Of a stretch of 59,000 bases of DNA, positions 44,208 through 58,991 are shown piece by piece. The stretch is from Ancylomarina sp. DW003 (GTDB taxonomy: Bacteria > Bacteroidota > Bacteroidia > Bacteroidales > Marinifilaceae). Location of the stretch: NCBI RefSeq assembly GCF_029029505.1, contig NZ_JAKJSD010000024.1, positions 1-59,000 on the forward strand, read 5' to 3'. Numbering within the stretch: position 1 is the first letter of the stretch; the number at the start of each line of letters is the position of its first letter. The notes beneath the pieces are model-generated. The model ran no database searches and was not told the origin of the DNA. It saw nothing but the letters and a program-made list of their open reading frames with translations. Both the position numbers and the translations under genes were made by a program.

Positions 44208-44239
44208 AATCCTCTTGAGAAATCAAGAGGATTTTTTTA
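44208..44239 (+). terminator. Terminator of tRNA-Leu
   Basis: A perfect 11-bp stem (44208-44218 with 44223-44233) is closed by a GAAA tetraloop and followed by a T-run. It overlaps the end of the convergent acyltransferase gene. Confidence 0.9.
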
Positions 44240-45382
44240 TGCCTTAACTTGATTTGGTATTAAAATTTTCTTTTTCGCTTTCCTTCGTTTTGTCCATTTA
44301 ATTATAGCTTGTTCAAAATAAGTGAATGAAAGGTGAGCCAGCCCAATGCTAAGACCAAATACCATCAGATAAAAACAGGAGATATAGAGACCAAAATTCT
44401 CTAAGAGGAAACCCGTTTTACTGAAGAAGAAAGATACCAAATAGATCACAAACATATGGATCATATAAATACCATAGGTTCTTTGTCCAATCCAATCGAA
44501 AAATGGATTATCCAGCTTAATGATATTGCGAGGATTGGCTGCCACATTAATAATTAACCATCCGTAAAGTAAGGACAGAGGCAGGGTGATGGTGCTCTTT
44601 ATTAATTTACTATCGGTATTGAAGCCATACCATCCAACTAGTGATAAGAACAAGAAGGCTTGTATCCATTTGTTAGAGAATATCCATAAGCTTAAAAGTT
44701 TTTCCTTTTTGTAATAAAGGTAGTAGCCTAAGAGTGCTCCAATGGACATAAAATGCAGTCGCATTGTGTGCACAAATGCTTGCATTTCCTGGCTTAAACC
44801 GAATAAATTGTAGGCATTTCCAATACTAACAAAAACGGATAGAATTGTTGTTATAACCAGAAAAGGGACAAGGTATTTAAAACGGTATTTCATGAAAGGT
44901 ATCAAAACCCAATAGAATTGCTCTTGTGCGCCTATTGACCAAGAGACGTGTAAGGCACCACCAACGTGATGCATGGAATTCATCAGGTTAGGTAAAAAAA
45001 ACAGATAGAGTACTAAGGCCAGACTAAGTTTATAATCGGTATGAGATTCGATGCCAATAAAAGGGATAATTACCCAATAAAAGAGCAAACCAAAGGCAAT
45101 GACCAGATAATAGACCGGAGCTAATCTGTAAAAGCGATTGCTGAAGAATTTACGCATATTTATATCACCACTTTTCTCATATTCACCAATGCGGATATAG
45201 GTGATTAGAAAACCACTAAGCGTAAAAAAGAAGGAAACGGCACCCTTATATAAAAATGCCATATCGGGTAAGCGGGGCAAATCCATAAGGGTTTGATTAT
45301 TTTGAGTGTGCATGGCAATAATAAAAAATGCCGCCATAAATCTCAATGTGTTGAGTCCGTATAAATAGTTGGTATTTTTCAT
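44237..45382 (-). CDS. Acyltransferase 3 family membrane protein (OafA-like)
   Basis: A 381-residue integral membrane acyltransferase with about 10 helices, of the family that acetylates or succinylates surface polysaccharides. The start YLYGLNTLRFMAAFFIIAMHT carries the family R and H residues. The gene overlaps the upstream ligase gene by 4 bp (ATGA), so they are translationally coupled and probably modify the same polymer. It lies in the EPS locus, separate from the export genes by the signalling block. Acyl donor and sugar target are unknown. Confidence 0.88.
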   Translation of the reverse strand: MKNTNYLYGLNTLRFMAAFFIIAMHTQNNQTLMDLPRLPDMAFLYKGAVSFFFTLSGFLITYIRIGEYEKSGDINMRKFFSNRFYRLAPVYYLVIAFGLLFYWVIIPFIGIESHTDYKLSLALVLYLFFLPNLMNSMHHVGGALHVSWSIGAQEQFYWVLIPFMKYRFKYLVPFLVITTILSVFVSIGNAYNLFGLSQEMQAFVHTMRLHFMSIGALLGYYLYYKKEKLLSLWIFSNKWIQAFLFLSLVGWYGFNTDSKLIKSTITLPLSLLYGWLIINVAANPRNIIKLDNPFFDWIGQRTYGIYMIHMFVIYLVSFFFSKTGFLLENFGLYISCFYLMVFGLSIGLAHLSFTYFEQAIIKWTKRRKAKKKILIPNQVKA

Positions 45383-46686
45383 TTGGTTTTGTATTGCTTA
45401 AAAAAGAGATTGACTTTTATTTTTTCTTGTTGACTGAGTTTGGGGTTATAGTGCTGTACCACTACGAATATTAGAAACTGATAAAAAAAGATGGCATAAT
45501 TGGTTTGTCCGAAAATTCCAAATTCTGTAACTGAATTGATGAGAAGCGGAATGATCATGGCAAGAAAAAAAGCTTTTAGATCTTTGTTTTTTGATTTTAT
45601 GACGCCTCTAAACAGGATCGTCATTTGTAGGATGACGAGTAAAAATCCGATGAAACCTAAATTCAACAGAACTTGCAAAAAGGTGTTGTGGGTCATATTC
45701 CCGGAATAAGCAGTAAGACTAATAAACCTGTTCGTATAAGATATCCTTTGGAAACCAAATCCCAGAAAGGGTTCTTTTACGATGCCTTCTTGTAATAAGG
45801 CTGTCCAAAACGGAATTCGCCCGGTCATACTAAAAACTTCATCGATATTACCAGCTTTAAATATGACGTACTGCAGAATAAAAGGAATAGCAATACCTGC
45901 TAATACAAAAGCAACAATCTTGATTTTTAGACTTGCCCGGTTCTTTAGAATAAGCATAGCTATAATTAAAAAACCAATAACCGACGAGCGGGATGTGGTT
46001 AGGAATAAGGTGAGTAAGGAAATAGAAAACCAGAAGAATAGTTGAGCCTTCTTTTTGCTTTTTAATAACTCCAGTAAAGCCAAACTTGCTCCCATTGATG
46101 CTAACATACCCAGTTCGTTTGGGTTCATTAAATAGCCTCCAAGACGTGTTTCACTTCCCCCTCGCATGGAACGATAAAACACATCGGGAGCTATCAATGA
46201 CCCAATGAGGAGAATCAAACAGGTCATTCCCATTACCTGAGCAGATATTTTGCTCAGGTTTATGGCATATTCCTGATAAAAGAAATTGTGTTGAAGAATG
46301 AGTTTATAATAGTAATAAACGAAAATAAGGCTCTGAATTGTCATATTCCATTGCAATATAGAATAGGAAACTTTAGCAGAACGCACAAGTCCTTCGGTGA
46401 TCCACATAAATGAGGCAAAAGACAAAAGAAGATAGCCCAGATATAACCAGAGAGCTAAACTTTCTTTATAGGAGTATGAGGCAACCATGCCCTTTTTTAG
46501 ATTGAATTGGTAGAGAAGGAAACACCAAATTAAAGCTACAAAGCGAAAACCAATTTTATACACCTGTGTAATAGCAGCACTTTCTGAAATAGAAAAATAA
46601 CTGGCTATCATCATAAAAAGAAGGATTTTGATGACAGATAGGTTCTTTTTAGCCAGGGGCTTTATGTCTTGATTGTATCTTCTCAT
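45379..46686 (-). CDS. O-antigen ligase / polysaccharide polymerase (Wzy_C family)
   Basis: A 435-residue multispanning protein of the O-antigen ligase (Wzy_C) family, which joins polysaccharides to lipid A or polymerises repeat units. Helices run along the whole length, with a long central loop (about residues 183-206: YRSMRGGSETRLGGYLMNPNELG) typical of this family. I chose the ATG at 46686. An ATG 15 codons upstream overlaps a predicted -24 element and would be too close to the promoter. It is upstream of and coupled to the acyltransferase. Whether it is ligase or polymerase cannot be told from sequence. Confidence 0.83.
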   Translation of the reverse strand: MRRYNQDIKPLAKKNLSVIKILLFMMIASYFSISESAAITQVYKIGFRFVALIWCFLLYQFNLKKGMVASYSYKESLALWLYLGYLLLSFASFMWITEGLVRSAKVSYSILQWNMTIQSLIFVYYYYKLILQHNFFYQEYAINLSKISAQVMGMTCLILLIGSLIAPDVFYRSMRGGSETRLGGYLMNPNELGMLASMGASLALLELLKSKKKAQLFFWFSISLLTLFLTTSRSSVIGFLIIAMLILKNRASLKIKIVAFVLAGIAIPFILQYVIFKAGNIDEVFSMTGRIPFWTALLQEGIVKEPFLGFGFQRISYTNRFISLTAYSGNMTHNTFLQVLLNLGFIGFLLVILQMTILFRGVIKSKNKDLKAFFLAMIIPLLINSVTEFGIFGQTNYAIFFYQFLIFVVVQHYNPKLSQQEKIKVNLFFKQYKTK

Positions 46687-46719
46687 TGTATTGCTTTGAT
46701 GAATTCTATAGCAATAGCA

Positions 46720-46735
46720 TAGAAAAAACATGCCA
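46720..46735 (-). promoter_or_regulatory. Candidate sigma-54 promoter for the ligase/acyltransferase operon
   Basis: On the minus strand TGGCATG-TTTT-TTCTA matches the -24 box TGGCAYR at all seven positions. The -12 box is weak (TTCTA against TTGCW). The predicted start near 46709 leaves 23 nt to the ATG at 46686, the same spacing seen at the FIST and RR promoters. Confidence 0.4.
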
Positions 46736-46827
46736 CGTTTGACCTCAATAATCAGAAGCTCCCCAAAGGCCTTTGTTTAGAGCAGATTTATCTTTTTTTC
46801 ATCTTCGTTGCGAAAGGAATAAAATAA

Positions 46828-46856
46828 GCCCCTGGTTTCATTATGAAACTAGAGGC
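46828..46856 (-). terminator. Terminator of the hybrid kinase gene (contains operator-like core)
   Basis: A 13-bp stem with two wobbles and loop TTA follows the hybrid kinase stop, with a TTATTTTATT stretch after it on the minus strand. The top of the stem is the palindrome GTTTCA-TTA-TGAAAC. Confidence 0.65.
46835..46849. promoter_or_regulatory. Palindrome GTTTCA-N3-TGAAAC, site a (candidate activator site)
   Basis: Perfect 6-bp half-sites GTTTCA / TGAAAC with spacer TTA. It lies about 108 bp upstream of the candidate -24 box of the ligase operon, a normal distance for an NtrC-type activator. It is also the tip of a terminator, which is the competing explanation. Confidence 0.45.
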
Positions 46857-46882
46857 TTAAACTGGTGTAGTTGTAAATGAAA

Positions 46883-49800
46883 TTATGAATTCAATTTTTC
46901 TTCAATTTCCAGAAACATTTTGGGCATATAAATTTTAATCCGATTCATGATGTCTGGTATCGATTCCAAGTCTTTCTCATCGAGAGCAAAGGCCTCGAGA
47001 TTTTGAAAATCGGTATTCAGAGAGTCGATACCAACAAGATTAATTGAAGGTTTTATTTTGTGAGCAATTTTTGAGAGTTTATCCCAATTCTGATTGTTAA
47101 AGGCTTCATCTAAATCATCAATATAACTTGGTGTCAAATCATTAAATTTAAGGAGCATCTTTTTTATCATCTCACCTTCATTATTCATCATTTTTTCAAG
47201 TTTCGATATATCAAGTATCTTATCCGGAACTTGTATTGATAAACCAGGCTGATTTTCAGAATCTTCCATTTGAGTATTACCATTCAAATTAAGAATAGAT
47301 ACAATTTTATGAAAGAGTAATTCTGGTTCAAATGGTTTTGAGATATAATCGTTCATACCAGCTTCTTTACAAGCTGAAATAACACCTTTTAGCACATTGG
47401 CAGTCAGAGCAATAATTGGTACGTTTAAATTCATCTCCTGCCTGATTATTCTACTGGCTTGAATGCCATCCATAATCGGCATTTGTTTATCCATCAAAAT
47501 CAGATCGTAAGTTTGTGTTTTTAGTTTTTCGAGAGCGATTTTTCCATTTTCAGCCGTATCAATATTAACATGCCATTTTTCCAACATCGAAATGGCAATA
47601 ATTTGGTTGAATTCGTTGTCTTCGACCAATAAAACGCGTTTCCCTTTCAGGAGATTTTCATCAATTATAAGATTTGAAGTTTTCGGCTTAATATCTTCTA
47701 ATTTTGCTTTTTTGAACTTGAGATTAAATGAGAAATGGCTACCAACTCCTTTTGTACTTTCCACTTTAATTTCTCCTCCCATCAGCTCGACCAATTGTTT
47801 ACTAATGGCAAGTCCGAGGCCTGTTCCTCCAAATTTTCTAGTTGTAGAATCATCTTCTTGTTTGAAATTCTCGAAGATATTAACCAAGCTATTTTTATCG
47901 ATACCTATGCCTGTGTCACTAACTATAAAACGAATTGTTTCTTCATTTACAGTACTGTTTTCGAGTAGGCATTCAAATTTAACGTAACCTTTTTTAGTGA
48001 ACTTTATGGCATTTGAAATTAAATTGAGGATGACCTGGTTAAGCTTAGCCGTATCAGCAAAAATATAAGGATGAATATCGGAATCAATATTAGAGCTCAA
48101 TTGGATTTCCTTTTCTTCAGCTCTGAATTCGAATGTTTGGAAGAGTTGATTGAGCATCTCTGAAAGATCACAAGCCAAAAATTCAAGTTTTGTTTCTCCC
48201 GATTCAATTTTTGAAAAATCCAAGACATCATTAACGACATTTAGGAGATTCGATGATGAAGTTCTTATGCCTGAAATGTACTTGTTCTGTTCTTCAGATT
48301 TATTTGTTTCGTCCAGTAGTTTACTAAAACCATAAATGGCATTTAGAGGTGTTCGTATTTCGTGACTCATATTGGCCAGGAAACGTGACTTAGATACATT
48401 GGCCTCTTCTGCTGTTTGTTTGGCAACCTTAAGCTCATCTTGATACTTAATCTTATCTGTGATATTTTTATACTGCCAAAGATGTCCGAAATATTGATCG
48501 TTGGAAAAAATAGGGATATAATCGCGTTCAAAAATCTGTCCGTCAGCAAACTCAACTTTTTCATCTATTCTGGTTTCTCTGTCTTTTAGGACATCAGCGA
48601 TTGATTCAATAAACTCATTGGGATTGGCAAGAAGGTGAGCTGATTGCTTTGCAGATTCAGAACAGTTCATCCCAATAAGAGCTTCAGGAGGAGCTGATAT
48701 GTTGAAAATATCACAGAATTCCTGATTCGTGATAATGATATTGCGCTTTTCATCTTCAAGCAAAATCCCCGATTGAAGATTGACGATAAGTGTTTCCAAT
48801 CTCTTTGAAGTTGTCTCAAGGTCAATTTTAGCTTTCTTAGGTTCTGTAATGTCTCTTACAAAGGCACTGAAAAATATTTTATTGTTGTGTTTGAGAGATT
48901 GAATGGTTAGTTCAACCGGAAAAATATGCCCCGATTTATGTTGCCCGGTAATTTCTATTCTTTGATTCAGAACAGGCCCATGCCCGGTTTTAAGATAATG
49001 TTTAATCCCCTTTTCGTGAGCAGCTCTATAGTTTTCCGGAATTATGAGATTGCTTAAAGATTCACCTATAGCCTCGTCTTCCGTCCAGCCAAAAATCCCT
49101 TTGGCTTGTTCATTCCAATGGGTAACAATACCTTCAATATCTATAATGATTACAGCATCGAGTGCCGATTCAATAATTAAACGGGTTCTTTCCTCACTTT
49201 CTTTGAGGTTTTCTTCCATCATCTTTCGCTCGGTAATATCAAGCAGAATATTTATGGATCCCAGATAGTTTTTGTTCGCATCCAGAAAAGGAGTGGCGCT
49301 AACATGAGTCCAGAGTATACTCCCATCTTTTCTGAGAAGTTTGGTCTCGAATGTGTTTTTTTCTCCTGCTAAGAGTATCTCTCGTTGTCTATGAATATTG
49401 GCTTGTTCATCTTTTAGAAAAAGATGGGAGATAGGGTCTTTTCCAACGATTTCATCAAGAGAATAGCCCGTTTTATTTAGAAATTGAGGATTTGCATAGC
49501 TAATTTCTAAATCTTTGTTGACAATGATAACACCTTCATCCATACCTTCTACAAGAGATCTGTAGAGGTAATCTGTCTCTCTTAATTGAAGTTCTGCCTT
49601 CTGTCTGATTTTAGATTCGTGAACAGATTTGGCATGAAATAAACTTCCCTCAATTGATGTTGTGAGTTTTTTTATGATTTGCTCTAATTTTCTATCATTA
49701 TCTGTATTTATATTTTGGGATCTGTAAAGTTTTAAGAAACCAATATTTCTCAATTTGAAAAGTGTATAACACCCTTCTTTAATATCTTTCTCAGTATTAA

Positions 49801-50137
49801 TTTCTTTAAAATTGATATCATCAGAATCCACCTTGATGTAACTTGATGTTCCTAAAAGCTGATAGATTTTATGCTCATTGGAAATTGTTTTTTCACCATC
49901 AAGATAACTGGGAATAGAGGCAATAAGTGTGCTATTGGAAAGAGATCGATCAAAATTGAGGTAGCGATCTTTTATCCAAAAAGAGACATAGTTTAGATTT
50001 TTACGAGATTGTAAAACACGAATGAAATTTAGGATATTTGTTCTTAGGTCCAGTGATTTTCCGATAGCTAATGATAGCTCGTAAAGTAAAGTGATGTCTT
50101 GAATGATATCGTTCTTTGTACCTTGATCGTCTTTCAT
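46883..50137 (-). CDS. Hybrid sensor histidine kinase (GAF-like, PAS x3, HK, REC, Hpt)
   Basis: A complete phosphorelay kinase of 1084 residues from the ATG at 50137. A cytoplasmic N-terminal GAF-like region (about 10-180) precedes three PAS domains (about 190-300, 315-435, 445-560). The H-box NMSHEIRTPLNAI carries His592. ATPase motifs are NLISNAIKFT, DTGIGID and GGTGLGLAISKQL. A REC domain with Asp883 in LILMDKQMP and an Hpt domain with His1026 in IAHKIKPS follow. No membrane helix is seen, so the signal is intracellular. It lies 127 bp after the FIST gene and is probably co-transcribed. The sigma-54 regulator two genes upstream is the likely output. Confidence 0.92.
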   Translation of the reverse strand: MKDDQGTKNDIIQDITLLYELSLAIGKSLDLRTNILNFIRVLQSRKNLNYVSFWIKDRYLNFDRSLSNSTLIASIPSYLDGEKTISNEHKIYQLLGTSSYIKVDSDDINFKEINTEKDIKEGCYTLFKLRNIGFLKLYRSQNINTDNDRKLEQIIKKLTTSIEGSLFHAKSVHESKIRQKAELQLRETDYLYRSLVEGMDEGVIIVNKDLEISYANPQFLNKTGYSLDEIVGKDPISHLFLKDEQANIHRQREILLAGEKNTFETKLLRKDGSILWTHVSATPFLDANKNYLGSINILLDITERKMMEENLKESEERTRLIIESALDAVIIIDIEGIVTHWNEQAKGIFGWTEDEAIGESLSNLIIPENYRAAHEKGIKHYLKTGHGPVLNQRIEITGQHKSGHIFPVELTIQSLKHNNKIFFSAFVRDITEPKKAKIDLETTSKRLETLIVNLQSGILLEDEKRNIIITNQEFCDIFNISAPPEALIGMNCSESAKQSAHLLANPNEFIESIADVLKDRETRIDEKVEFADGQIFERDYIPIFSNDQYFGHLWQYKNITDKIKYQDELKVAKQTAEEANVSKSRFLANMSHEIRTPLNAIYGFSKLLDETNKSEEQNKYISGIRTSSSNLLNVVNDVLDFSKIESGETKLEFLACDLSEMLNQLFQTFEFRAEEKEIQLSSNIDSDIHPYIFADTAKLNQVILNLISNAIKFTKKGYVKFECLLENSTVNEETIRFIVSDTGIGIDKNSLVNIFENFKQEDDSTTRKFGGTGLGLAISKQLVELMGGEIKVESTKGVGSHFSFNLKFKKAKLEDIKPKTSNLIIDENLLKGKRVLLVEDNEFNQIIAISMLEKWHVNIDTAENGKIALEKLKTQTYDLILMDKQMPIMDGIQASRIIRQEMNLNVPIIALTANVLKGVISACKEAGMNDYISKPFEPELLFHKIVSILNLNGNTQMEDSENQPGLSIQVPDKILDISKLEKMMNNEGEMIKKMLLKFNDLTPSYIDDLDEAFNNQNWDKLSKIAHKIKPSINLVGIDSLNTDFQNLEAFALDEKDLESIPDIMNRIKIYMPKMFLEIEEKLNS

Positions 50138-50263
50138 AATTAAAAGTGTATACAATAGGTTCTGTATTCTGCTCAGATTTTCAGTTCTTCTAAATTTAAT
50201 AAATAAATCTTATTGTTTATATGTTTTCCTATTGATATACATTGTATAATTTTGATTATATGA

Positions 50264-51367
50264 TTAATAAAGGATTCCTGTAACAAGGGTTTTGTTGAAA
50301 AATTCTAGATTTCCTCTTCCATTAAGAGCTATTTCTCCCAAACTAAGAGCACCTTCAGGTTGGATGCCCGGAGAATATTTCTGAAAGGAATGATAAACGG
50401 CCGATAGTTCTTTTTCGAAATCCTGATTTAAGAACAGAGCCCGTGAGATACAATCGAAAACAAGCCCTGTATGTGCTTTGTGAATTTTGGGAGCATTAGG
50501 TTTAAATGTTGAACCAGCAGCAGTAATCAAAGCCTTTTTATCTGAAGTAAGAAGATATAGAATGGTGTTTTCCGGCACATCTGCTATGCAAGTAATACTT
50601 GTTCCATTCACAATAATGGGATCTCTCACAATAAACTCAGATTCTTCTTTATAAATACCAAAGGGGTAAGATTTGGATATATTTAAAAAGAGATCTTTTC
50701 CTATTTCTGTTCCTGAATGATTTTGAACAAGTTTTTTGTAAAAATTGAAGGCCGGTTCCCAATTGAGTTCATGTATGGTGTTCCCTTCAGTTTTTGTGGC
50801 TACAAATGGACCTTCGATATTTTTCCACCCATGACGAACACCAAGCTCGCTTTTCATATCAAGTAAACAAATAAGTGCAGCATCTTTCAACACACCCTCA
50901 TTTGTGATAAGACAAGGTTTTGATTCCAGTGAAATTGAGCCAGCACCACATCCCAGGTAATTGACAGAATTGCCAAAGCAATTATACATCTCGAATAGAA
51001 AATTGGAAACATGATCAGCTATACCGTCCACAAGAACGATTTGAGTGAGTTTATCTTCTGTTTTGGGGATTGAAATCGATCTAAGTTGATTAGATGGCCC
51101 CTCCAAATCCTTAACCACAATGGGTTTTTGTGCATGCGATAAACTTTGGATAATAACACCTGTTTCGTGATGTACTTTACCAGAAATAAGACTTGGGAAT
51201 ATACCTCCTATAAACGAGATGTTCAATGAATTTAATTCTTTTACTAACTCGGTTAAATTTGGAACTGTTTTTTCTGCTAGCAGAATTAAAAATGTAGTCG
51301 ATTCATCATGAATTTGATTCTTGATGTAGCTTTTGATTTCTGAGATATAACTTTTCTGAAGATACAT
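50264..51367 (-). CDS. FIST-domain sensory protein
   Basis: A 367-residue protein made of FIST N and FIST C domains, a small-ligand sensing module often encoded beside signal transduction genes and thought to bind amino acids. Typical phrases are FIGGIFPSLISG, the central NYLGCGAGSISLE, and the closing PEGALSLGEIALNGRGNLEFFNKTLVTG. It has no membrane segment. It stands alone rather than fused to a kinase, next to the hybrid kinase on the same strand, which suggests it feeds that kinase. The start is ATG at 51367; a GTG two codons upstream is possible. Confidence 0.88.
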   Translation of the reverse strand: MYLQKSYISEIKSYIKNQIHDESTTFLILLAEKTVPNLTELVKELNSLNISFIGGIFPSLISGKVHHETGVIIQSLSHAQKPIVVKDLEGPSNQLRSISIPKTEDKLTQIVLVDGIADHVSNFLFEMYNCFGNSVNYLGCGAGSISLESKPCLITNEGVLKDAALICLLDMKSELGVRHGWKNIEGPFVATKTEGNTIHELNWEPAFNFYKKLVQNHSGTEIGKDLFLNISKSYPFGIYKEESEFIVRDPIIVNGTSITCIADVPENTILYLLTSDKKALITAAGSTFKPNAPKIHKAHTGLVFDCISRALFLNQDFEKELSAVYHSFQKYSPGIQPEGALSLGEIALNGRGNLEFFNKTLVTGILY

Positions 51368-51400
51368 AAACACATTTTTTTAATATTGTATTTATGACCA

Positions 51401-51417
51401 TTCAAGTATTGTGCCGT
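51401..51417 (-). promoter_or_regulatory. Candidate sigma-54 promoter for FIST-kinase operon
   Basis: On the minus strand CGGCACA-ATAC-TTGAA matches TGGCACR-N4-TTGCW with two mismatches (first T and the C of GC). GG to GA spacing is 10 bp as required. The predicted start near 51390 leaves 23 nt to the ATG at 51367. Confidence 0.5.
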
Positions 51418-51487
51418 TGAAATAAGATTTGGAACACCCTGTAAATACTGTAGTTTTAAAACAATCATTTCGCAGGAGAGTTGCAGA

Positions 51488-51519
51488 ATAAAAAATGGAG
51501 TTTCATTTTGAAACTCCAT
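51488..51519 (-). terminator. Terminator of the sigma-54 regulator gene (contains operator-like core)
   Basis: A perfect 11-bp stem (51495-51505 with 51509-51519) with loop TTT is followed by TTTTT on the minus strand, 17 bp after the regulator stop. The palindrome GTTTCA-TTT-TGAAAC forms its upper part. Confidence 0.8.
51500..51514. promoter_or_regulatory. Palindrome GTTTCA-N3-TGAAAC, site b
   Basis: Perfect half-sites with spacer TTT, flanked by A and T (AGTTTCA / TGAAACT). It sits about 92 bp upstream of the FIST -24 box. It shares its position with a terminator hairpin. Confidence 0.5.
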
Positions 51520-51535
51520 CATTTATTGGAAAATA

Positions 51536-52885
51536 CTATTCTGTTAGATTGTGTTTTTTGATCATACGGTAAATCGTTGATTTGGCAACGCCTAACTTTT
51601 GAGCTACCGTTACGCCGTTTTGATCGTATTTATCCAGAAAGTGTTTTACAATCTTAATCGTGTAATTTTCGAGACTTGTTTCTTCAGACAGAAAATTGGC
51701 TGCTGAGTCGAAACTTTCAAAGTGAATATCAGTATCCTTTATTTCATTTCCATCAGCCATAATGATGGCTAGTTCTATAACAGCTTTTAGTTCACGAACA
51801 TTTCCGGGATAGGCATAAGCCATCAGTTTTTGCTTGGCATCAGAACTAAAACTAACTTTTTTACGTTTATTTTCCTTTGTGAATTCGTTAGCAAAATGCT
51901 GTGATAGAATGAGGATATCCTTATTTCGTTCTCTCAAAGGAGGTAATTTAACGGGAATACCCATTAACCTGTAATAAAGGTCTTGTCGGAAATTGCCTTT
52001 TTTGACTTCCTCAGCTAGGTTTTTGTGTGTCGCAGTAACAATGCGAACATCAATTTTGATTTTTTTGTTGCCTCCAACTCTTATGAGCTCTCTTTCTTGC
52101 AGAACACGCAATAGTTTGGTTTGAGTATTGGCATCCATTTCGCCAATTTCATCTAAAAAGAGAGTGCCCTTATGGGCTTCTTCAAATTTCCCCACGCGTT
52201 GTTGAACAGCACCTGTAAATGCCCCTTTTTCATGCCCAAAGAGTTCACTTTCTATTAGTTCTGATGGAATGGCACCAACATTAATAGCAACAAAGGGCTG
52301 CTTTTTTCGAGCAGAATTAAAATGAATGGCTTTGGCAACCAGTTCTTTTCCTGTTCCTGTCTCACCACTTATCGAAACCGAAATAGAAGAATCTATAGTT
52401 TTTCCCATTAAAACGAAGAGTTTCTTTATCGGATCGCTATTGCCAACAATCACTTGGCTAAAGTCAAACTTTTTTCCAACCTCTTCACGTAGTTGTTCAT
52501 TTTCAGATTTGAGCTGCAGATTTTCGCGTAAATTTTTGATGGTATTCCAAAGTCTGTCTTTGGCATCTTCATCTTTTACGATATAATCGTAAGCACCTTT
52601 TTTCAGAAGATTGATTGCTGTATTAATATCTTCCTGTCCTGAGATGATGATAATGGGAATATCGGCATCATGTTCTCTAATTTTATTAATGAGCGTTTCG
52701 CACTTGATGTCAGGTAAAGAATAATCTAAAGTGATGACATCTGGTTTTGGGAAAAGGTTTTTTAGGAAGTCATCGCCACTGGAATATTTACTAACTGTGT
52801 AGTCCGGATTCAATTGCAGATGGTATTCTAAAAGATCTGCATACCATTCATTATCCTCTATAATAGATATGTGTAATTGTTTCAT
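51536..52885 (-). CDS. Sigma-54 dependent response regulator, NtrC family
   Basis: A 449-residue activator with a REC domain (about 1-120, phospho-acceptor Asp54 in ITLDYSLP). The sigma-54 AAA+ domain (about 140-380) has Walker A GETGTGKE (174-181), GAFTGA (221-226) and Walker [13 protein letters not shown] Fis-type helix-turn-helix (about 405-449) ends in [18 protein letters not shown]. All residues for sigma-54 contact and ATP hydrolysis are intact, so it should be an active activator. It is divergent from the EPS operon and upstream of FIST-kinase. It is the natural candidate to bind the three GTTTCA-N3-TGAAAC sites. Confidence 0.95.
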
Positions 52886-52954
52886 AAGCAGTTAATCATT
52901 TAGATTCTAGACAAAAATTCATCCTTTGGTTCGTATTCTTAATTTGAATTGAAA

Positions 52955-52969
52955 GTTTCAAAATGAAAC
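52955..52969. promoter_or_regulatory. Palindrome GTTTCA-N3-TGAAAC, site c
   Basis: Perfect half-sites with spacer AAA and flanks A/T, in the divergent region between the sigma-54 regulator and the EPS operon. Unlike sites a and b it is not part of a terminator, which makes it the best evidence for an operator. It lies about 64 bp upstream of the candidate -24 box. Confidence 0.55.
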
Positions 52970-53024: not shown

Positions 53025-53040
53025 TGGTATTGTCTTGGAT
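53025..53040 (+). promoter_or_regulatory. Candidate sigma-54 promoter for the EPS operon
   Basis: TGGTATT-GTCT-TGGAT keeps the -24 GG and correct 10-bp spacing to GA, but has several mismatches to TGGCAYR-N4-TTGCW. The predicted start near 53051 leaves 22 nt to the ATG at 53073. Confidence 0.4.
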
Positions 53041-53072: not shown

Positions 53073-53516
53073 ATGAAATTTAATAAAAATTATGAGCTTT
53101 TCATAGTCGATGACGATCCTATTTATAGTGAGTTTATTACGACTGTTTTAAATCAAGCAGGTTTTAAGGGTGTAAGTGCCTTCGAAACTGAAAGAGAAAT
53201 CATGGATAACCTTTATCAAGCACCTGATGTTATTTTTTTGGATTACTATCTGGAAAATACCAATGGTTTGGATATTCTAAGAAAAATAAAAGCAACAAAT
53301 CCTGATATCCATGTTGTTTTTCTAAGTTCTCAAGAGAAAATTGAGATTGCGGTAAATTCTCTAAAATACGGAGCTCTCGATTATATTATAAAGAATGATG
53401 AGGCAAAAAGGAGAATCATATCCTCAATGAACCGTATTATGAATTTGGATTCAAAGAAGAAGAATCTTTTGTCGCAACTAAAAGAGAATTTTTCGTTTCT
53501 AAACCTCCTGTTTTAA
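53073..53516 (+). CDS. REC-only response regulator heading the EPS operon
   Basis: A 147-residue single-domain response regulator. The acidic pocket FIVDDDP (10-16), phospho-acceptor Asp57 in VIFLDYYLEN, the Ser in VVFLSSQ and the Lys in YIIKND are present. The final 25 residues form a helix with no output domain. Its sequence resembles the REC domain of the sigma-54 regulator across the divergent promoter (for example KYGALDYIIKNDEAK against [15 protein letters not shown]), so it may compete for the same phosphoryl group or relay it. It is followed 18 bp later by the export lipoprotein gene. Confidence 0.9.
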   Translation: MKFNKNYELFIVDDDPIYSEFITTVLNQAGFKGVSAFETEREIMDNLYQAPDVIFLDYYLENTNGLDILRKIKATNPDIHVVFLSSQEKIEIAVNSLKYGALDYIIKNDEAKRRIISSMNRIMNLDSKKKNLLSQLKENFSFLNLLF

Positions 53517-53534: not shown

Positions 53535-54287
53535 ATGAAATCATTCAGCCCATTTCTAATCGTTTTTATTTTCAGTTTTACATTTCTGTTTAGCTCATGT
53601 AAGATTCAGAATCTTATGCAGAGTTCGACTATAGAAACGAATAATGAAGATTTATTTTCTGCTGAGAGCAGGAATTATGAATATACAATTCAACCTGAAG
53701 ACAAACTTGCTGTTAGCATTTGGGGACATGATGATTTGAGTATTGGATCTGTATTTGGGATTTACAACTCGAATGAAGTTTATGGCAAATGGGTTTTGGT
53801 TGATAAAGGTGGCAAGGCTGCACTTCCTCAATTGGGACAAGTTAAGGTTGCTAACCTGACAACACGCCAGTTGACCGACTCTTTAACAATGGCTTACGCT
53901 AAATTTATTAAGAAGCCTATTATTGTTGTGAAGGTTTTAAATAAACGAGTTGCTCTTTTGGGTGCTGTTAAGCAAGCTTCATCAATGATTTTGGATGAAG
54001 ACCAGGTGCCTTTACTCGATCTTATAGCCAAGGCAGAAGGCTTTGACTATTATGCGGACAGGAGTCAGGTAAAATTAGTTCGGAAAAAAAATGGACTACC
54101 AAAAGAATATATTATTGATTTGACTCAGATGGAGACTTATCAACAAAGCAATATTCTGATTCGTCCGGGAGATGTGATTTATGTACCTAATAAAAATGGT
54201 AAAGCCTTTGATAAAAAATCAAACAGAATGCTTCCATTTTTCGGAGTTCTTTCAAGTTTAGCAGTATTCATTTCTGTAGTAAAATAA
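53535..54287 (+). CDS. Polysaccharide export lipoprotein (Wza-like)
   Basis: A 250-residue outer-membrane polysaccharide export protein. The signal sequence ends in a lipobox FLFSSC (lipidated Cys near residue 22). The Poly_export domain has the phrase YTIQPEDKLAVSIWGHDDLS (about 50-69), then SLBB-type regions with VLNKRVALLGAVKQ and RPGDVIYVPNKNG. A C-terminal hydrophobic segment (about 232-248) is common in Bacteroidota members instead of the E. coli amphipathic helix. It forms the outer channel for the polymer made by this locus. The Wzc-like gene follows after 2 bp. Confidence 0.93.
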   Translation: MKSFSPFLIVFIFSFTFLFSSCKIQNLMQSSTIETNNEDLFSAESRNYEYTIQPEDKLAVSIWGHDDLSIGSVFGIYNSNEVYGKWVLVDKGGKAALPQLGQVKVANLTTRQLTDSLTMAYAKFIKKPIIVVKVLNKRVALLGAVKQASSMILDEDQVPLLDLIAKAEGFDYYADRSQVKLVRKKNGLPKEYIIDLTQMETYQQSNILIRPGDVIYVPNKNGKAFDKKSNRMLPFFGVLSSLAVFISVVK

Positions 54288-54289
54288 TT

Positions 54290-56581
54290 ATGAACGAGAT
54301 TGATAATATAAAACGACTTTTGATTCCTTCGATAAAGGGACTTCCAATTATAATTGGTTTAACTCTTATTGCCATTTTACTGGCAACTAAGGTGATCATT
54401 TACTCCGTACCCATGTATCAGAGTTTTTCTCTATTGAGATTAGATGATAAATCGACGGGACTTTCAGGAACGAACCTTTATAAGGATTTTGACGTGTTTT
54501 TTGCACCTCAAAAAATTGCTGCAGAAGTAGAAGTTCTGAAATCGGGACAACTGATCTCACGTGTTGCAGATAAGTTGAATTATAAGGTGACTTATTATCG
54601 CGTGGGCCGAGTTAAGAGAACGGAATTGTATACCGATCTACCATTTAAAGTTGAATTTAAGCATATTGCTTCACAGTATCTTGACAAAGAGTTTCTTCTT
54701 GAAATTAAAGATTCTACTTCATTTAGATTGGGGTATTCTCTGCAAGGCTTTTTGACTTGGGTTGATGGTCAGTTTTCAAAGGAAATAGACGAAGGTGTTT
54801 TTAATTTGAAATTGAATTTACATCCACAGTTTAATGGTAAAAAACGAAGCAAATTGAGTGGAGAGTATGTTTTTATACACCATTCTAAGACGAAACAGAT
54901 AGATCTTATCAAATCGAATCTGTTTGTAAAATCTGTTGATAAAGATGTGGCTGTAATTCGCATTGGCTTTAAATCTCAAGTTCCTGAGAAAGCTTCTGAA
55001 GTTGCAAATACGGTAGCTAAAACTTATATCGAAAACTATATAGATATTCGAACGAATGCTGCTGATAAAACAGGTTCTTTTATTGAAGATCGATTGGATT
55101 TTGTATCTGAAAAACTGAGAAAATCGGAGCGAGCATTAGAAGTTTATCGATCAAGAAATAAGATTGTGAACCTTCGCCAACAAACTGAAACAGGTTTACG
55201 TGAGGCATCTCAGGTTCGTGTTCAGTACAATAATATCGTGATGCAAGAAACGGCTCTCGATTCTTTAAATCAATACATCAATCAAGGGAACCCTAATTTT
55301 CTTGAACTAGCACCTCAGGTTGCTTTTGGTGATTTGCTTTTTACAGAGTTGATTAAAAAGATGAAAACTTTTCAAGGTGAACGACGTGAACTTTTAATGA
55401 AATACACTTCTGAGAATGAAAAAGTCAAAGTTATAGAGGCAAAAATTGAAGATCTGGTTGTTTATCTCAAAGAAAGTATAAAGAAGACCAAGCAGGATAT
55501 GATGATTCGACGAAAAGAATTGGAAATTTTCTTGAACAAAATAGATAAGCAGTTTGATCAATTGCCTACGAACGAAAAACAGATGGTAATTTTGGAGCGC
55601 GAATTCAGATTGAATCAGGAAATGTATAATTTCTTAACTCAGAAACGTCTGGAAGCATCTATAGTTAAAGCCGCAACAATCTCTTTTCATCAGATACTTG
55701 AATATGGAACCCCTAATTTTACAGCAATATCACCCAATAAGAAATTGATTTTGTTTGTTTCAGGATTACTAGGGATACTTATTTCACTTGCTTTTATTTA
55801 TCTCAGAGAGTTCCTTAGTGGTAAGATAAACTCCAGATCTCAACTGGAAAAACTGACGAGCTTACCTATTATTGGTGTCATTCCTAAGATTCATCCGAAA
55901 AGAGGGATTCATATTGATTCCAATAAATTCTCGGGACTAGCATCTGAATTTGAAGTAAGAGAATATCTTGAGAAGGGAAGCACATTTTTAATCGGTTCAT
56001 CTTTGCCAGGAGAAGGGAAATCCTACGTTGCACAGCATTTGGCACAAGCTTTTCAAGCCAAAGGTAAATCTGTATGCTTATTAGATTTTAATGCTTTAAA
56101 GCCTGAGTTTTTAGCTAAAGAAAGTAATACTTGGTCAGAGGATTTAAAAGCAGGTAGAGCTATCAATAAAAATTCAATTATAAAAGGTGAGAATGGAGTT
56201 GATATTTTACCAGGTTCTTGTGAGCTATCGAATTTAGACAGGACAGTGATAAACGCATTGTTGAAGGAATTAAAAAAGCAATACGATATTTTGATTTTTG
56301 ACTCTGCAGCAACTGTTCTTGGGAATGAATCCTTATTGTTATATGCATTGGTTGATCATGTAATCTACTTGTATAGAGCCAGATTTACGGGGGTCAAATA
56401 TGCTCAGCAAGCTGAAATGTTAGCCGAGGAGTATGGTTGGAAAAATATTCATCTTCTTTTAAATGGCGTACATCCGGCAACTAATTTTTCAGGTTACTAC
56501 ACAGGAAGCAGATATTCTTACGAATACGAGAAAGGTAACTTATTAGCTAAGATTAAACACTATTTTAAAATCTATTTATGA
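54290..56581 (+). CDS. Wzc-like chain-length / tyrosine autokinase protein with altered Walker A'
   Basis: A 763-residue inner-membrane co-polymerase. Two helices (about 18-40 and 485-505) enclose a long periplasmic coiled-coil Wzz/GNVR region. The cytoplasmic kinase domain has Walker A GSSLPGEGKS (569-578). The usual Walker A' (LLIDxDxRxP) is CLLDFNALKP (596-605), with the second Asp replaced by Asn601. Walker B region is ILIFDSAATV with Asp671. The C-terminus has a tyrosine cluster GYYTGSRYSYEY (735-746). It overlaps the flippase gene by ATGA. It probably controls chain length; kinase activity may be reduced. Confidence 0.9.
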   Translation: MNEIDNIKRLLIPSIKGLPIIIGLTLIAILLATKVIIYSVPMYQSFSLLRLDDKSTGLSGTNLYKDFDVFFAPQKIAAEVEVLKSGQLISRVADKLNYKVTYYRVGRVKRTELYTDLPFKVEFKHIASQYLDKEFLLEIKDSTSFRLGYSLQGFLTWVDGQFSKEIDEGVFNLKLNLHPQFNGKKRSKLSGEYVFIHHSKTKQIDLIKSNLFVKSVDKDVAVIRIGFKSQVPEKASEVANTVAKTYIENYIDIRTNAADKTGSFIEDRLDFVSEKLRKSERALEVYRSRNKIVNLRQQTETGLREASQVRVQYNNIVMQETALDSLNQYINQGNPNFLELAPQVAFGDLLFTELIKKMKTFQGERRELLMKYTSENEKVKVIEAKIEDLVVYLKESIKKTKQDMMIRRKELEIFLNKIDKQFDQLPTNEKQMVILEREFRLNQEMYNFLTQKRLEASIVKAATISFHQILEYGTPNFTAISPNKKLILFVSGLLGILISLAFIYLREFLSGKINSRSQLEKLTSLPIIGVIPKIHPKRGIHIDSNKFSGLASEFEVREYLEKGSTFLIGSSLPGEGKSYVAQHLAQAFQAKGKSVCLLDFNALKPEFLAKESNTWSEDLKAGRAINKNSIIKGENGVDILPGSCELSNLDRTVINALLKELKKQYDILIFDSAATVLGNESLLLYALVDHVIYLYRARFTGVKYAQQAEMLAEEYGWKNIHLLLNGVHPATNFSGYYTGSRYSYEYEKGNLLAKIKHYFKIYL

Positions 56582-57846
56582 TACTTTTTTTACAAAAGAT
56601 ACTTGGAGGTAAGGAAGAAAAGTTGCTTGTCTTGTTTGATCAGGGGATAGTGAGTGGATCTAACTTTGTGATTGGTATTCTGATCGCTCGATTCCTGGGA
56701 ATTGAACAGTTTGGAATATATGGTTTCATTTTTCTAATCTACTTGTTCTGTTTGGGTTTGCAGCAAGCATTTTTTGTCATGCCTTTGTATTCCCTTGGTC
56801 CAACTTATTCAGCTGATAAGAAAAAAACATATCTGAATAGCCTTTTGATTATTCAAGCCGGTTTTGCTTTATTCTTTTCGCTACTATGTTTTTTTGTGCT
56901 GACTTTTATACCCATTAGTATAAGTCCCAAAGTACAGGAACTTGGCGGATTGATTGCCTTGATAGCCTTATTGGTTTTATTCCAGGATTTTATAAGGCGA
57001 TTATTCCTGTTTCAGAAGTTTTTTAAAGACTTAATTCTATTGGATACTATGGCTTATATCCTTCAAATAATTTTAATATCACTGATATATGTGTTTGACG
57101 AATTTACTTTAGAAACCTGCATGAGAGTGGTTTGTTTCACTCTGTTTGTTTCGGTGATGTTTGGCTTTTATAAGATTCGGAAATTAGAATTTAAGCCATG
57201 CATATTAAGAGAAACTCTAAGTAAGCATTGGAACTTTTCGAAATGGTTATTAGCTCGTGCAATTTTAACTTATTCATCAGGTAATTTTTTCATTATTGCT
57301 GCTGGCACAATTCTTGGACCTGTTGCCATAGGTGCTATCAAAATGGGACAAAATTTGCATGGCGTGATGAATGTTGTCTTTTTGGCAATTGAAAATCATG
57401 TACCTATTGTTTCAGCTAATTTGTATCAGCAAAAAGGAAAACTTGCTCTATATGGTTACCTGAAACAAATGACCTTAAAAAGTTTGTTGATTTGTTCTGG
57501 TTTAGGCTTGACAGTTCTTATTTGTTCAACATGGTTGATTTCTAATTTGTATGGAAATGACTATCAGGAATACGCCTATGTTTTAATATGGTTTGCGGTT
57601 ATTAATCTGTTGGTATGTATTTCAATGCCTTTCCGTTTTGCCTTACGAACTTTTGAGAGAACTCAATCACTCTTTTTCGCAACAGCCTTATCAGCTTTGT
57701 TTGGCCTCTTGTTAGCCTACCCTTTGATTGAAACTTTTCAGATGAATGGCCTTCTGTTTGGATTAATTATGAGTCAATTGATTATGATTCTTTACCTGGC
57801 TTATTCGGTCTTTCTATCTGGAAAGCAGATTTTACTTAAAGTATGA
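56578..57846 (+). CDS. Polysaccharide flippase (Wzx-like, MOP superfamily)
   Basis: A 422-residue membrane protein with about 12 helices, of the polysaccharide transporter branch of the MOP superfamily, which flips lipid-linked repeat units. The first part FDQGIVSGSNFVIGILIARFLG is typical. It overlaps the upstream gene by 4 bp. Together with an O-antigen-ligase/polymerase-like gene, an export lipoprotein and a Wzc-like protein it makes a nearly complete Wzx/Wzy-type pathway within the window. Confidence 0.87.
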   Translation: MILFLQKILGGKEEKLLVLFDQGIVSGSNFVIGILIARFLGIEQFGIYGFIFLIYLFCLGLQQAFFVMPLYSLGPTYSADKKKTYLNSLLIIQAGFALFFSLLCFFVLTFIPISISPKVQELGGLIALIALLVLFQDFIRRLFLFQKFFKDLILLDTMAYILQIILISLIYVFDEFTLETCMRVVCFTLFVSVMFGFYKIRKLEFKPCILRETLSKHWNFSKWLLARAILTYSSGNFFIIAAGTILGPVAIGAIKMGQNLHGVMNVVFLAIENHVPIVSANLYQQKGKLALYGYLKQMTLKSLLICSGLGLTVLICSTWLISNLYGNDYQEYAYVLIWFAVINLLVCISMPFRFALRTFERTQSLFFATALSALFGLLLAYPLIETFQMNGLLFGLIMSQLIMILYLAYSVFLSGKQILLKV

Positions 57847-57869: not shown

Positions 57870-58991
57870 ATGAAAACAATTGTACATATTATATTGGGTA
57901 AAGCGAATCCTAACCGAATGAATGGTGTTAATAAGGTTGTTTATCAACTTGCTAATGCTCAAAGTGGAATAGGTGAGAAGGTTGAGGTTTGGGGAATTAC
58001 TAAAAACCCCAATAGTTCTTCAGATTACTCCAGAGAGTTTCATTTAAGATTATTTAAAAAGCATAGAAATTCTTTTGAAATAGACACTCGTTTACTAAAA
58101 GCTATAGAAGCTGAAGAACAAACAAGCATTTTTCATCTTCATGGAGGATTTATTCCTGAAATGTATGTTTTGGGACAAATCTTGAGTCGCAATAACAGAG
58201 CTTATGTTTTCACGCCTCACGGTTCTTATAATATACTAGCACTTCGTAAAAGCTATTTTCTTAAGAAGATCTATTTAAACTTTTTTGAAAAAACCTTACT
58301 AAAGAAAGCTGAGTATGTTCATCTGATAGGTCAAAGTGAAATTGATTCAATGGATGCTTTACACTTGGAGGCTAAGCGTGTTTTAATCCCCAATGGCCAG
58401 ATATTAGAGCAGGAAACTGTAATTGAAGATTTATTTGACTCACCAGAAGTTAGTTTTGGTTTTATGGGACGCTTTACCGTTTACACGAAAGGCTTAGACC
58501 TTTTACTTAAGGGGTTTCAATTGTATAAAAACAAATATAGGGGTTCGGGAAAATTGAAGTTGATAGGAGCTGGCGGTGAGGAGAAGAAGATTAAAAAACT
58601 AGTCAGTGACTTGAATTTATCTGACAGTGTGATTTTTATGGGAGCAAAGTATGGAGATGAAAAAAAATCATGTCTTCAAGATTTAACCGGATTTTTTCAT
58701 CCTTCAAGAAATGAAGGTATGCCAGGTGCAGTTCTCGAAGCATCGGCTTTAGGAGTACCTTGCGTTGTTAGTAAGGCAACAAACTTAATGGACTATGTTG
58801 TTGACTACCATGCAGGATTTGGCTTGAAAAATAATTCTCCGGAGTATATCGCTAATGCTATGGTAAAATTAGAGTTGCGAAAAAAATCGGGAAGTATTGC
58901 TGTGATGGTTTACAATGCTCAGCGTATGATAGCGGAAGAATTTGATTGGAAGATAATTGCAAAACGCTTCTCTAGTGAGGTCTTTGTTTAA
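57870..58991 (+). CDS. GT4 family glycosyltransferase
   Basis: A 373-residue GT-B glycosyltransferase of family 4. The N-terminal acceptor domain contains FHLHGGFIPEMYVLG and FTPHGSYN. The C-terminal donor domain contains GFMGRFTVYTKGLDLLLKGF and the EX7E motif NEGMPGAVLEASALG. It adds a sugar during repeat-unit assembly at the cytoplasmic face. Sugar and acceptor are unknown. It ends nine bases before the window edge; the operon probably continues. Confidence 0.9.
   Translation: MKTIVHIILGKANPNRMNGVNKVVYQLANAQSGIGEKVEVWGITKNPNSSSDYSREFHLRLFKKHRNSFEIDTRLLKAIEAEEQTSIFHLHGGFIPEMYVLGQILSRNNRAYVFTPHGSYNILALRKSYFLKKIYLNFFEKTLLKKAEYVHLIGQSEIDSMDALHLEAKRVLIPNGQILEQETVIEDLFDSPEVSFGFMGRFTVYTKGLDLLLKGFQLYKNKYRGSGKLKLIGAGGEEKKIKKLVSDLNLSDSVIFMGAKYGDEKKSCLQDLTGFFHPSRNEGMPGAVLEASALGVPCVVSKATNLMDYVVDYHAGFGLKNNSPEYIANAMVKLELRKKSGSIAVMVYNAQRMIAEEFDWKIIAKRFSSEVFV

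Follow-up and report, generated by a model that had tools for sequence, protein, structure and literature searches.

A repeated 15-bp palindrome as a candidate enhancer for an NtrC-type activator at an exopolysaccharide locus of Ancylomarina sp. DW003

Palindromes and genes of the exopolysaccharide locus

The window analyzed here, a 59-kb stretch (contig NZ_JAKJSD010000024.1, positions 1 to 59,000) of the Bacteroidota bacterium Ancylomarina sp. DW003, carries an exopolysaccharide (EPS) locus in which the palindrome GTTTCA-N3-TGAAAC occurs in three exact copies, sites E, D and A, with the spacers TTA, TTT and AAA, respectively (Table 1). A first-pass annotation of this DNA had read these palindromes as sites of an NtrC-type activator encoded among them; the three copies, with their coordinates and spacers, proved exact, and its remark that no other copy was seen by eye agrees with the absence of any further match at 0 or 1 mismatch in the window. 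Two copies with two mismatches were present (53510 and 54691), and matches with up to three mismatches numbered 65, against a mean of 54.7 in shuffled sequences, 12 of 100 of which reached 65. As claimed, each exact copy stands upstream of a different transcription unit, namely the units of REC-Wza-Wzc (A), FIST-kinase (D) and WzyC-acyltransferase (E). What had been called a "FIST-hybrid kinase" is a pair of genes, one for a FIST protein and one for a hybrid kinase.

The NtrC-type activator, predicted in the first-pass annotation with an intact GAFTGA loop and a Fis-type helix-turn-helix (HTH), was recovered with all these features. The protein matched Pfam PF00158 (E 7e-70) and contains the GAFTGA loop expected of a bacterial enhancer-binding protein (bEBP), and its receiver domain (PF00072) carries the phospho-acceptor Asp 54 within VITLDYSLP. 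Pfam at a threshold of 0.001 did not report the Fis-type HTH, which is covered in the alignments to chain 4l4u_A (query residues 4-446) and to TIGR02915 (9-447). Among ten scanned locus proteins, this was the sole DNA-binding regulator recognised.

Table 1. Features of the locus within the window
Feature	Position	Strand	Remarks
Site A GTTTCAAAATGAAAC	52955..52969	.	Candidate enhancer (upstream activating site), REC-Wza-Wzc operon; centred at -88 from the predicted transcription start site
Site D GTTTCATTTTGAAAC	51500..51514	.	Candidate enhancer, FIST-kinase unit; centred at -116 from the predicted transcription start site
Site E GTTTCATTATGAAAC	46835..46849	.	Candidate enhancer, WzyC-acyltransferase unit; centred at -132 from the predicted transcription start site
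Sigma54-like block TGGTATTGTCTTGGAT	53025..53040	+	48 bp before REC start codon; spacing one base below consensus; identical in G003
Sigma54-like box CGGCACAATACTTGAA	51401..51416	-	Before FIST gene; same place: TGGCATAAAACTTGAT in G003, AGGCATGATGCTTGCG in NORP351
Sigma54 -24-like box TGGCATGTTTTTTCTA	46720..46735	-	Weak -12; identical in G003
Terminator-like hairpin	51494..51520	-	12 pairs and T-rich tail; 3' of NtrC gene; stem includes site D
Terminator-like hairpin	46825..46859	-	3' of hybrid kinase; stem includes site E
NtrC-type activator	51536..52885	-	Receiver (D54), sigma54-interaction AAA+ domain with GAFTGA, C-terminal Fis-like HTH; candidate binder
FIST-domain protein	50264..51373	-	Likely start codon 51367; relation to NosP weak
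Hybrid histidine kinase	46883..50155	-	PAS domains, HisKA, HATPase, receiver, weak Hpt
Stand-alone receiver protein (REC)	53073..53516	+	First gene of export operon
Wza-type polysaccharide export protein	53535..54287	+	
Wzc-like chain-length determinant	54290..56581	+	
Conserved 422-aa protein	56578..57846	+	No Pfam or NCBIfam match; homologues at same place in distant EPS loci
Glycosyltransferase	57870..58991	+	Last gene before contig end
WzyC/O-antigen-ligase-type protein	45379..46731	-	Likely start codon 46686
Acyltransferase, WzyC unit	44237..45382	-	

Copies of the palindrome are few in the whole genome (4,835,991 bases), where seven exact matches were found and none to the reversed pattern used as a control. 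Exact copies were present in 20 of the 58 genomes searched (this one and its relatives), most of them in this genome (seven) and in a second genome of the genus, G003 (five). A Poisson estimate, which treats a copy on a second contig as part of the locus, gave 6e-8 for at least four exact copies in the ~24-kb locus at the genome-wide rate. The exact copies outside the window comprised one in the apparent continuation of the locus (C2:165280), an intergenic one that looks like an ordinary terminator (C56:22195), one within a 319-aa open reading frame (ORF) (C56:54687) and a perfect 17-mer, AGTTTCAAAATGAAACT (C11:65551; positions 8551-8567 of L008, contig C11:65550), which lies ~370 bp upstream of the gene for a 2168-aa FG-GAP protein sorted by the type IX secretion system; a check of 250 bp to one side of it and 400 bp to the other showed no TGGYAY box. 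Since the seven one-mismatch 17-mers outside the locus in this genome lie inside ORFs (six) or across an ORF start (C23:323982), a genome-wide regulon of such sites was rejected, and the regulon looks confined to the one exopolysaccharide locus. Only one of four outside one-mismatch sites checked (C10:28147) had a TGGYAY within ~165 bp, and that box lies inside the same 811-aa ORF; three two-mismatch examples examined in G003, among the matches listed, were all inside ORFs.

The locus appears to continue onto a second contig, a point that goes beyond the first-pass annotation. Labilibaculum sp. NORP351 (L093), whose regulator is 83 percent identical to that of the window, runs on past the equivalent of the last window glycosyltransferase into a palindrome, site B, and an orthologue (52 percent) of an 857-aa protein gene that in Ancylomarina sp. 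DW003 sits at the end of contig C2 (L009 12584-15157). This gene order suggests that contig C2 adjoins the window at these two ends. In this genome, contig C2 carries an exact site B, ~124 bp before the 857-aa gene, and site F (AGTTGCAAAATGAAACT, one mismatch), before a glycosyltransferase gene (GT403). Together with A, D and E, these make five sites centred 88-132 bp upstream of the predicted starts of five transcription units of one EPS locus, within the range of ~80-150 bp typical of upstream activating sites.

The sites are kept at orthologous loci. In G003, where the main alignment of the locus shows 79.5 percent identity, sites A, D, E and F are exact, and B would fall beyond the contig end; all three window palindromes remain intact within diverged intergenic DNA, in which 167 of 234 (A), 125 of 234 (D) and 162 of 242 (E) columns are identical. 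Downstream blocks are also retained there: site A is followed by a conserved stretch of 25 bases that includes TGGTATTGTCTTGGATATACT, and site E by one that includes CGTGGCATGTTTTTTCTATGC. Conservation in NORP351 was partial across the three slots on its contig, with A exact, B at one mismatch and only half of the palindrome left at D; E and F lie off the contig. The more remote orthologues of G026 and G034 (58 and 56 percent) had no site at 0-1 mismatch, and G026 had three with two mismatches. Beside these two orthologues stands a putative dihydrouridine-synthase gene.

Promoter-like boxes and hairpins at the five sites

A sigma54 -24-like box follows each of the five sites in this genome, 40-57 bp before the start codon. 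It reads TGGCAT at E, B and F, CGGCAC at D (TGGCAT in G003) and TGGTAT at A (TGGCAC in NORP351), and the D box of NORP351, AGGCATGATGCTTGCG, is a near-consensus -24/-12 element. RpoN is encoded in all five genomes of the genus. To score promoters we used our own 15-point score, built on the general sigma54 consensus. For single promoters the signal was modest: D (p 0.026) and B (p 0.048) exceeded their shuffles, and none of 500 shuffles beat F. TGGYAY boxes 36-66 bp upstream were found at 8 of 13 site-bearing gene starts and at 3 of 55 others, one of the latter being B of G003 (Fisher p 2e-5), and at 3 of 6 versus 2 of 47 starts in this genome alone (p 0.008). The summed score of 12 window-clade promoters, a set that includes B of G003 (site off contig) and omits F of G003, was above all 400 shuffle sets (z 8.6), as was that of 20 distant site-bearing promoters (z 9.0); the related genomes entering these tests are not independent.

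Sites E and D are each nested at the core of a longer inverted repeat (46825-46859 for E, 51487-51527 for D), and these repeats fold on the minus strand with -18.4 and -18.5 kcal/mol, respectively, a stability that none of 200 shuffles reached. Both hairpins lie immediately 3' of a gene, the hybrid kinase (E) or NtrC (D), and end in a T-rich tail, and thus have the stable stem and T-run of an intrinsic terminator; the terminator scan found D, and E was recognised by its fold and inverted repeat with the tail TTATTTTATT, being absent from the scan list. G003 retains the outer stem of the E hairpin with some bases different. That D and E look like sites doubling as terminator stems was not foreseen in the first-pass annotation. 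Site A, between divergent genes, folds weakly (-5.2 on the minus strand, 40 of 200 shuffles as stable; -9.9 on the plus strand, 13 of 200). Site B of this genome has a fold of -12.3 (7 of 200 shuffles as stable) and no T-run, and its NORP351 counterpart forms a stable hairpin, likewise without a T-run. No hairpin forms at site F of this genome, where 172 of 200 shuffles were as stable, and a separate terminator-like hairpin stands between it and its promoter.

Related dyads and regulators in other Bacteroidota

When genomes of the phylum were searched with a profile of the 857-aa protein, 10 of 395 gave a match, this one included, and in all nine others an NtrC-type orthologue lies within ~12 kb of the gene. 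With variations, the gene order REC-Wza-Wzc-orf422-GT1-WzyC / 857-aa gene-AcT (acyltransferase)-GT407-GT360 / GT403-WecA recurs. The 857-aa protein itself, found at the EPS locus across Bacteroidota, showed weak APH-like and dTMP-kinase-like matches below cut-off.

At 33 promoters of 13 such loci (the REC, 857-aa and GT403 gene starts), we found a differently spelled dyad, TTCCA-N5-TGGAA, exact at 20, within one mismatch at 26 and absent from 7. The next commonest palindrome (5-base arms, spacer 0-10) occurred at 4 of the 33, and shuffled promoters gave a mean of 0.035 and a maximum of 1. The dyad was first noticed in L170 and L152; it is exact at 6 of 9 promoters in the first four loci and at 14 of 24 in the nine loci fetched after the first sighting. 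None of eight further gene starts in these loci (WzyC, AcT, WecA, Wza and four NtrC), which were kept out of the promoter count, has the exact dyad. The seven promoters that lack it are those of the 857-aa genes of L194 and L195, which follow WzyC with a one-base gap, and of L201 and L119, and the three of a 63-percent-GC genome. Whole-genome searches with TTCCANNNNNTGGAAA returned 4 to 11 places each in six of nine genomes, two of them intergenic in the EPS locus; no intergenic copy was found in the EPS locus of G801, G458 or G493, and in this genome and G003 the sequence occurs elsewhere, with none on the locus contigs.

A third spelling, TTCCCA-N3-TGGGAA, was present at three of four promoters examined in G129, the REC copy with one mismatch; also in G129, a 1548-aa protein (L217 3741-8384) lies behind such a site at the EPS locus and is possibly co-regulated. 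When centred, all three spellings are 15-bp dyads. This re-spelling of the site in other families goes beyond the first-pass reading. General enrichment of TTTCA-N3-TGAAA at distant orthologues was sought over 107 regulator loci and none was found. Of 80 loci scanned for repeated palindromes, 13 had any, and of these L042 (window clade) and L166 alone were judged relevant.

In a midpoint-rooted tree of 27 regulators, with weak deep forks and internal stops set to X, the EPS regulators of TTCCA-type loci formed one clade of 12 rows (98/97), which takes in G493, where no site was seen, and L119, whose site has one mismatch. The three Labilibaculum-clade regulators, that of the window included, fell in another clade (97/95) together with relatives showing no polysaccharide genes nearby. 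FIST and kinase genes apart, no EPS polysaccharide genes were found around L063, L066 and L072 over 13, 8 and 16 kb, around L044 and L045 over 18 and 9 kb, or around L094, L110 and L128 over 17 kb each; tree rows marked 'nonEPS?' carry a default label, and L085 (G129) among them proved to be at an EPS locus. In one non-EPS relative (G380) the NtrC-FIST-kinase module recurs, with no clear site beside it. The regulator gene of G108, the best match outside the genus, is preceded by two imperfect GTTTCA-type dyads that are 18 bp from each other; beside this regulator locus, tandem repeats of a GC-rich hairpin-like unit were also observed (L213 7811-8141). Over the few lineages compared, operator spelling follows regulator lineage, which points to the local regulator as the binder.

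Candidate mechanism, rival explanations and described systems

We consider it very probable that the palindromes are enhancer sites of the NtrC-type activator (51536-52885), which would switch five EPS-locus promoters via sigma54. The earlier reading of an activator-site regulon is thereby supported at the level of sequence, as genome copies are few, sites are kept at orthologous loci and dyads track the regulator lineage. A dimer of the regulator would bind the palindromes as upstream activating sites, and its phosphorylation would probably come from the adjacent FIST/hybrid-kinase pair, which, lying beside the regulator, plausibly serves as the input. Once phosphorylated, the regulator would form an AAA+ ring, contact sigma54-RNA polymerase at a -24/-12 promoter ~60-110 bp downstream and open the promoter. 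Five promoters would be wired in this way, those of REC-Wza-Wzc (A), FIST-kinase (D), WzyC-acyltransferase (E), the 857-aa kinase-like gene with glycosyltransferases (B) and GT403-WecA (F), and site D before the FIST-kinase unit would provide positive feedback. D and E may have become part of the upstream gene's terminator hairpin, and each would then double as a terminator stem; enhancers act over distance, and therefore a terminator and a site could share DNA.

Several observations weigh against this mechanism. Against the sigma54 pattern of GG at -24 and GC at -12 with a 10-base gap, the -12 elements are poor, being weak everywhere except at D of NORP351 and GT403 of the distant L195. Taken one by one, boxes A and E do not outscore shuffles (p 0.35 and 0.34), and the spacing at A is one base short; in G003, the top-scoring stretch at A differs from the conserved block, and the box of F lies 250 bp from the start codon and was omitted from the z test. 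A further 21 distant promoters, which lack an exact site but in several cases have a near one, also beat shuffles (z 4.2), and all p and z values given are optimistic, the promoter motif, weights and range having been picked after inspection. NORP351 retains a mere half-site at D. The EPS loci of G493 (GC-rich) and G458 have no exact or one-mismatch TTCCA-type site, the WzyC promoter of G129 lacks TTCCCA-N3-TGGGAA, and across the 107 distant regulator loci TTTCA-N3-TGAAA (11) was not enriched over permuted arms (ACTTT 13, TGAAA 11). The lineages compared are few, and the regulator of L166, a locus with dyads of its own, groups outside the window clade.

Two of the three window sites, D and E, could also be explained as terminator stems alone, and the palindromes as a whole might then be intrinsic-terminator stems that share an AT-rich core by chance, an account favored by the stable hairpins at these two sites, by the terminator-like copy C56:22195 and by the hairpin at site B of NORP351, though the latter lacks a T-run. 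It cannot explain all three window sites, because site A has divergent genes on either side and a weak fold; F has no hairpin and B a modest fold without a T-run, all five sites precede TGG- or CGG-type boxes, and other families carry dyads in the same slots. Terminator function was therefore rejected as the whole story and is, as the sole explanation, very unlikely.

Another bEBP of the genome might bind the sites instead of the locus-encoded one, as the genome holds eight matches to the regulator at E up to 1e-60, itself included. We regard this as unlikely, since the spelling of the site changes along with the lineage of the locus-borne regulator, the regulator stays near the locus in the nine other genomes, and comparable dyads stand next to the regulator genes of non-EPS relatives. 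That the sites are operators of a repressor or a sigma70-type regulator would suit the palindrome length, which fits many dimeric regulators, and the weak -12 elements; it is highly improbable in view of the placement 88-132 bp upstream of predicted starts, which fits enhancers better than repressor operators, the conserved TGGCAY boxes and the intact GAFTGA loop of the sole DNA-binding regulator recognised.

The enhancer mechanism is conventional; the evolutionary record of the locus is unusual. Tentatively, we propose that a phylum-wide EPS regulon may have kept its promoter slots and 15-bp dyad frame as the operator letters were rewritten at least two times (the spellings meant being TTCCA-N5-TGGAA, TTCCCA-N3-TGGGAA and GTTTCA-N3-TGAAAC); in the Labilibaculum clade, the activator could have been swapped for one with its own FIST-kinase module, with new sites arising within terminator hairpins such that enhancer and terminator are one element. 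If true, this would be a natural record of a whole regulon changing its DNA code, with likely enhancers placed within terminator hairpins. The locus provides a testable activator, its candidate sites and five promoters, along with natural sets of re-spelled sites elsewhere, which makes it possible to test directly how an activator changes in step with its whole set of sites.

The nearest described system, which works alike, is PrsK/PrsR with the PEP-CTERM box (Haft et al. 2006; PMC1569441), in which an NtrC-type response regulator is tied to exopolysaccharide loci, a 17-nt upstream motif stands on average 62.8 nt before a sigma54 -24/-12 motif, and a motif profile was used to infer the binder. 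As described in that source, its targets are PEP-CTERM protein genes, its motif ends in TTTACA, and it occurs in Proteobacteria only; here, in contrast, the targets are the polysaccharide units themselves, the host belongs to Bacteroidota, the site is a mirror image, and the regulator scores 385 bits against the TIGR02915 (PrsR) cut-off of 502.6. The RpoN1-dependent pepA promoter of Aquincola tertiaricarbonis, linked to floc formation, has a mapped start, a TGGCAC -24 element and a predicted upstream enhancer; unlike the promoters of this locus, it serves a PEP-CTERM gene, and its -12 element is CTGCTT (PMC9850573). NosP/NosK nitric-oxide signalling resembles this locus in a FIST-domain protein encoded beside a kinase and in a link to biofilms, with an HD-GYP protein as output (PMC12570481); here the output would be an NtrC-type activator, and the FIST protein reaches 31.3 bits against a NosP cut-off of 450. 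Sigma54 has a general tie to exopolysaccharide genes as a controller of the bacterial exterior (PMC3162934), in a paper whose main text has no words beginning Bacteroid- or Flavobact- and in which no site like that of this locus was seen. Bacteroidota sigma54 targets such as chaperones are named in PMC12316311, in whose text the word exopolysaccharide is absent. Sigma54 regulons of Bacteroidota are little covered in the literature searched, which left subscription journals mostly outside, and none for exopolysaccharide was found described there.

The dyads of L166, which apparently represents the same organism as G136, form two tandem pairs of TTTTCA-N3-TGAAAA, 20 bp apart, beside the regulator, each in front of a member of the same gene family. 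This exact tandem was found in L166/G136 only among 393 genomes, with one mismatch in five others and none for the control, and L166 alone was convincing when tandem similar dyads were sought across loci. The related proteins behind the pairs (L166 10006-10959 and 12578-13582) have no Pfam match and lie near an NtrC-type regulator and a hybrid kinase, and the pairs possibly mark a separate sigma54 regulon.

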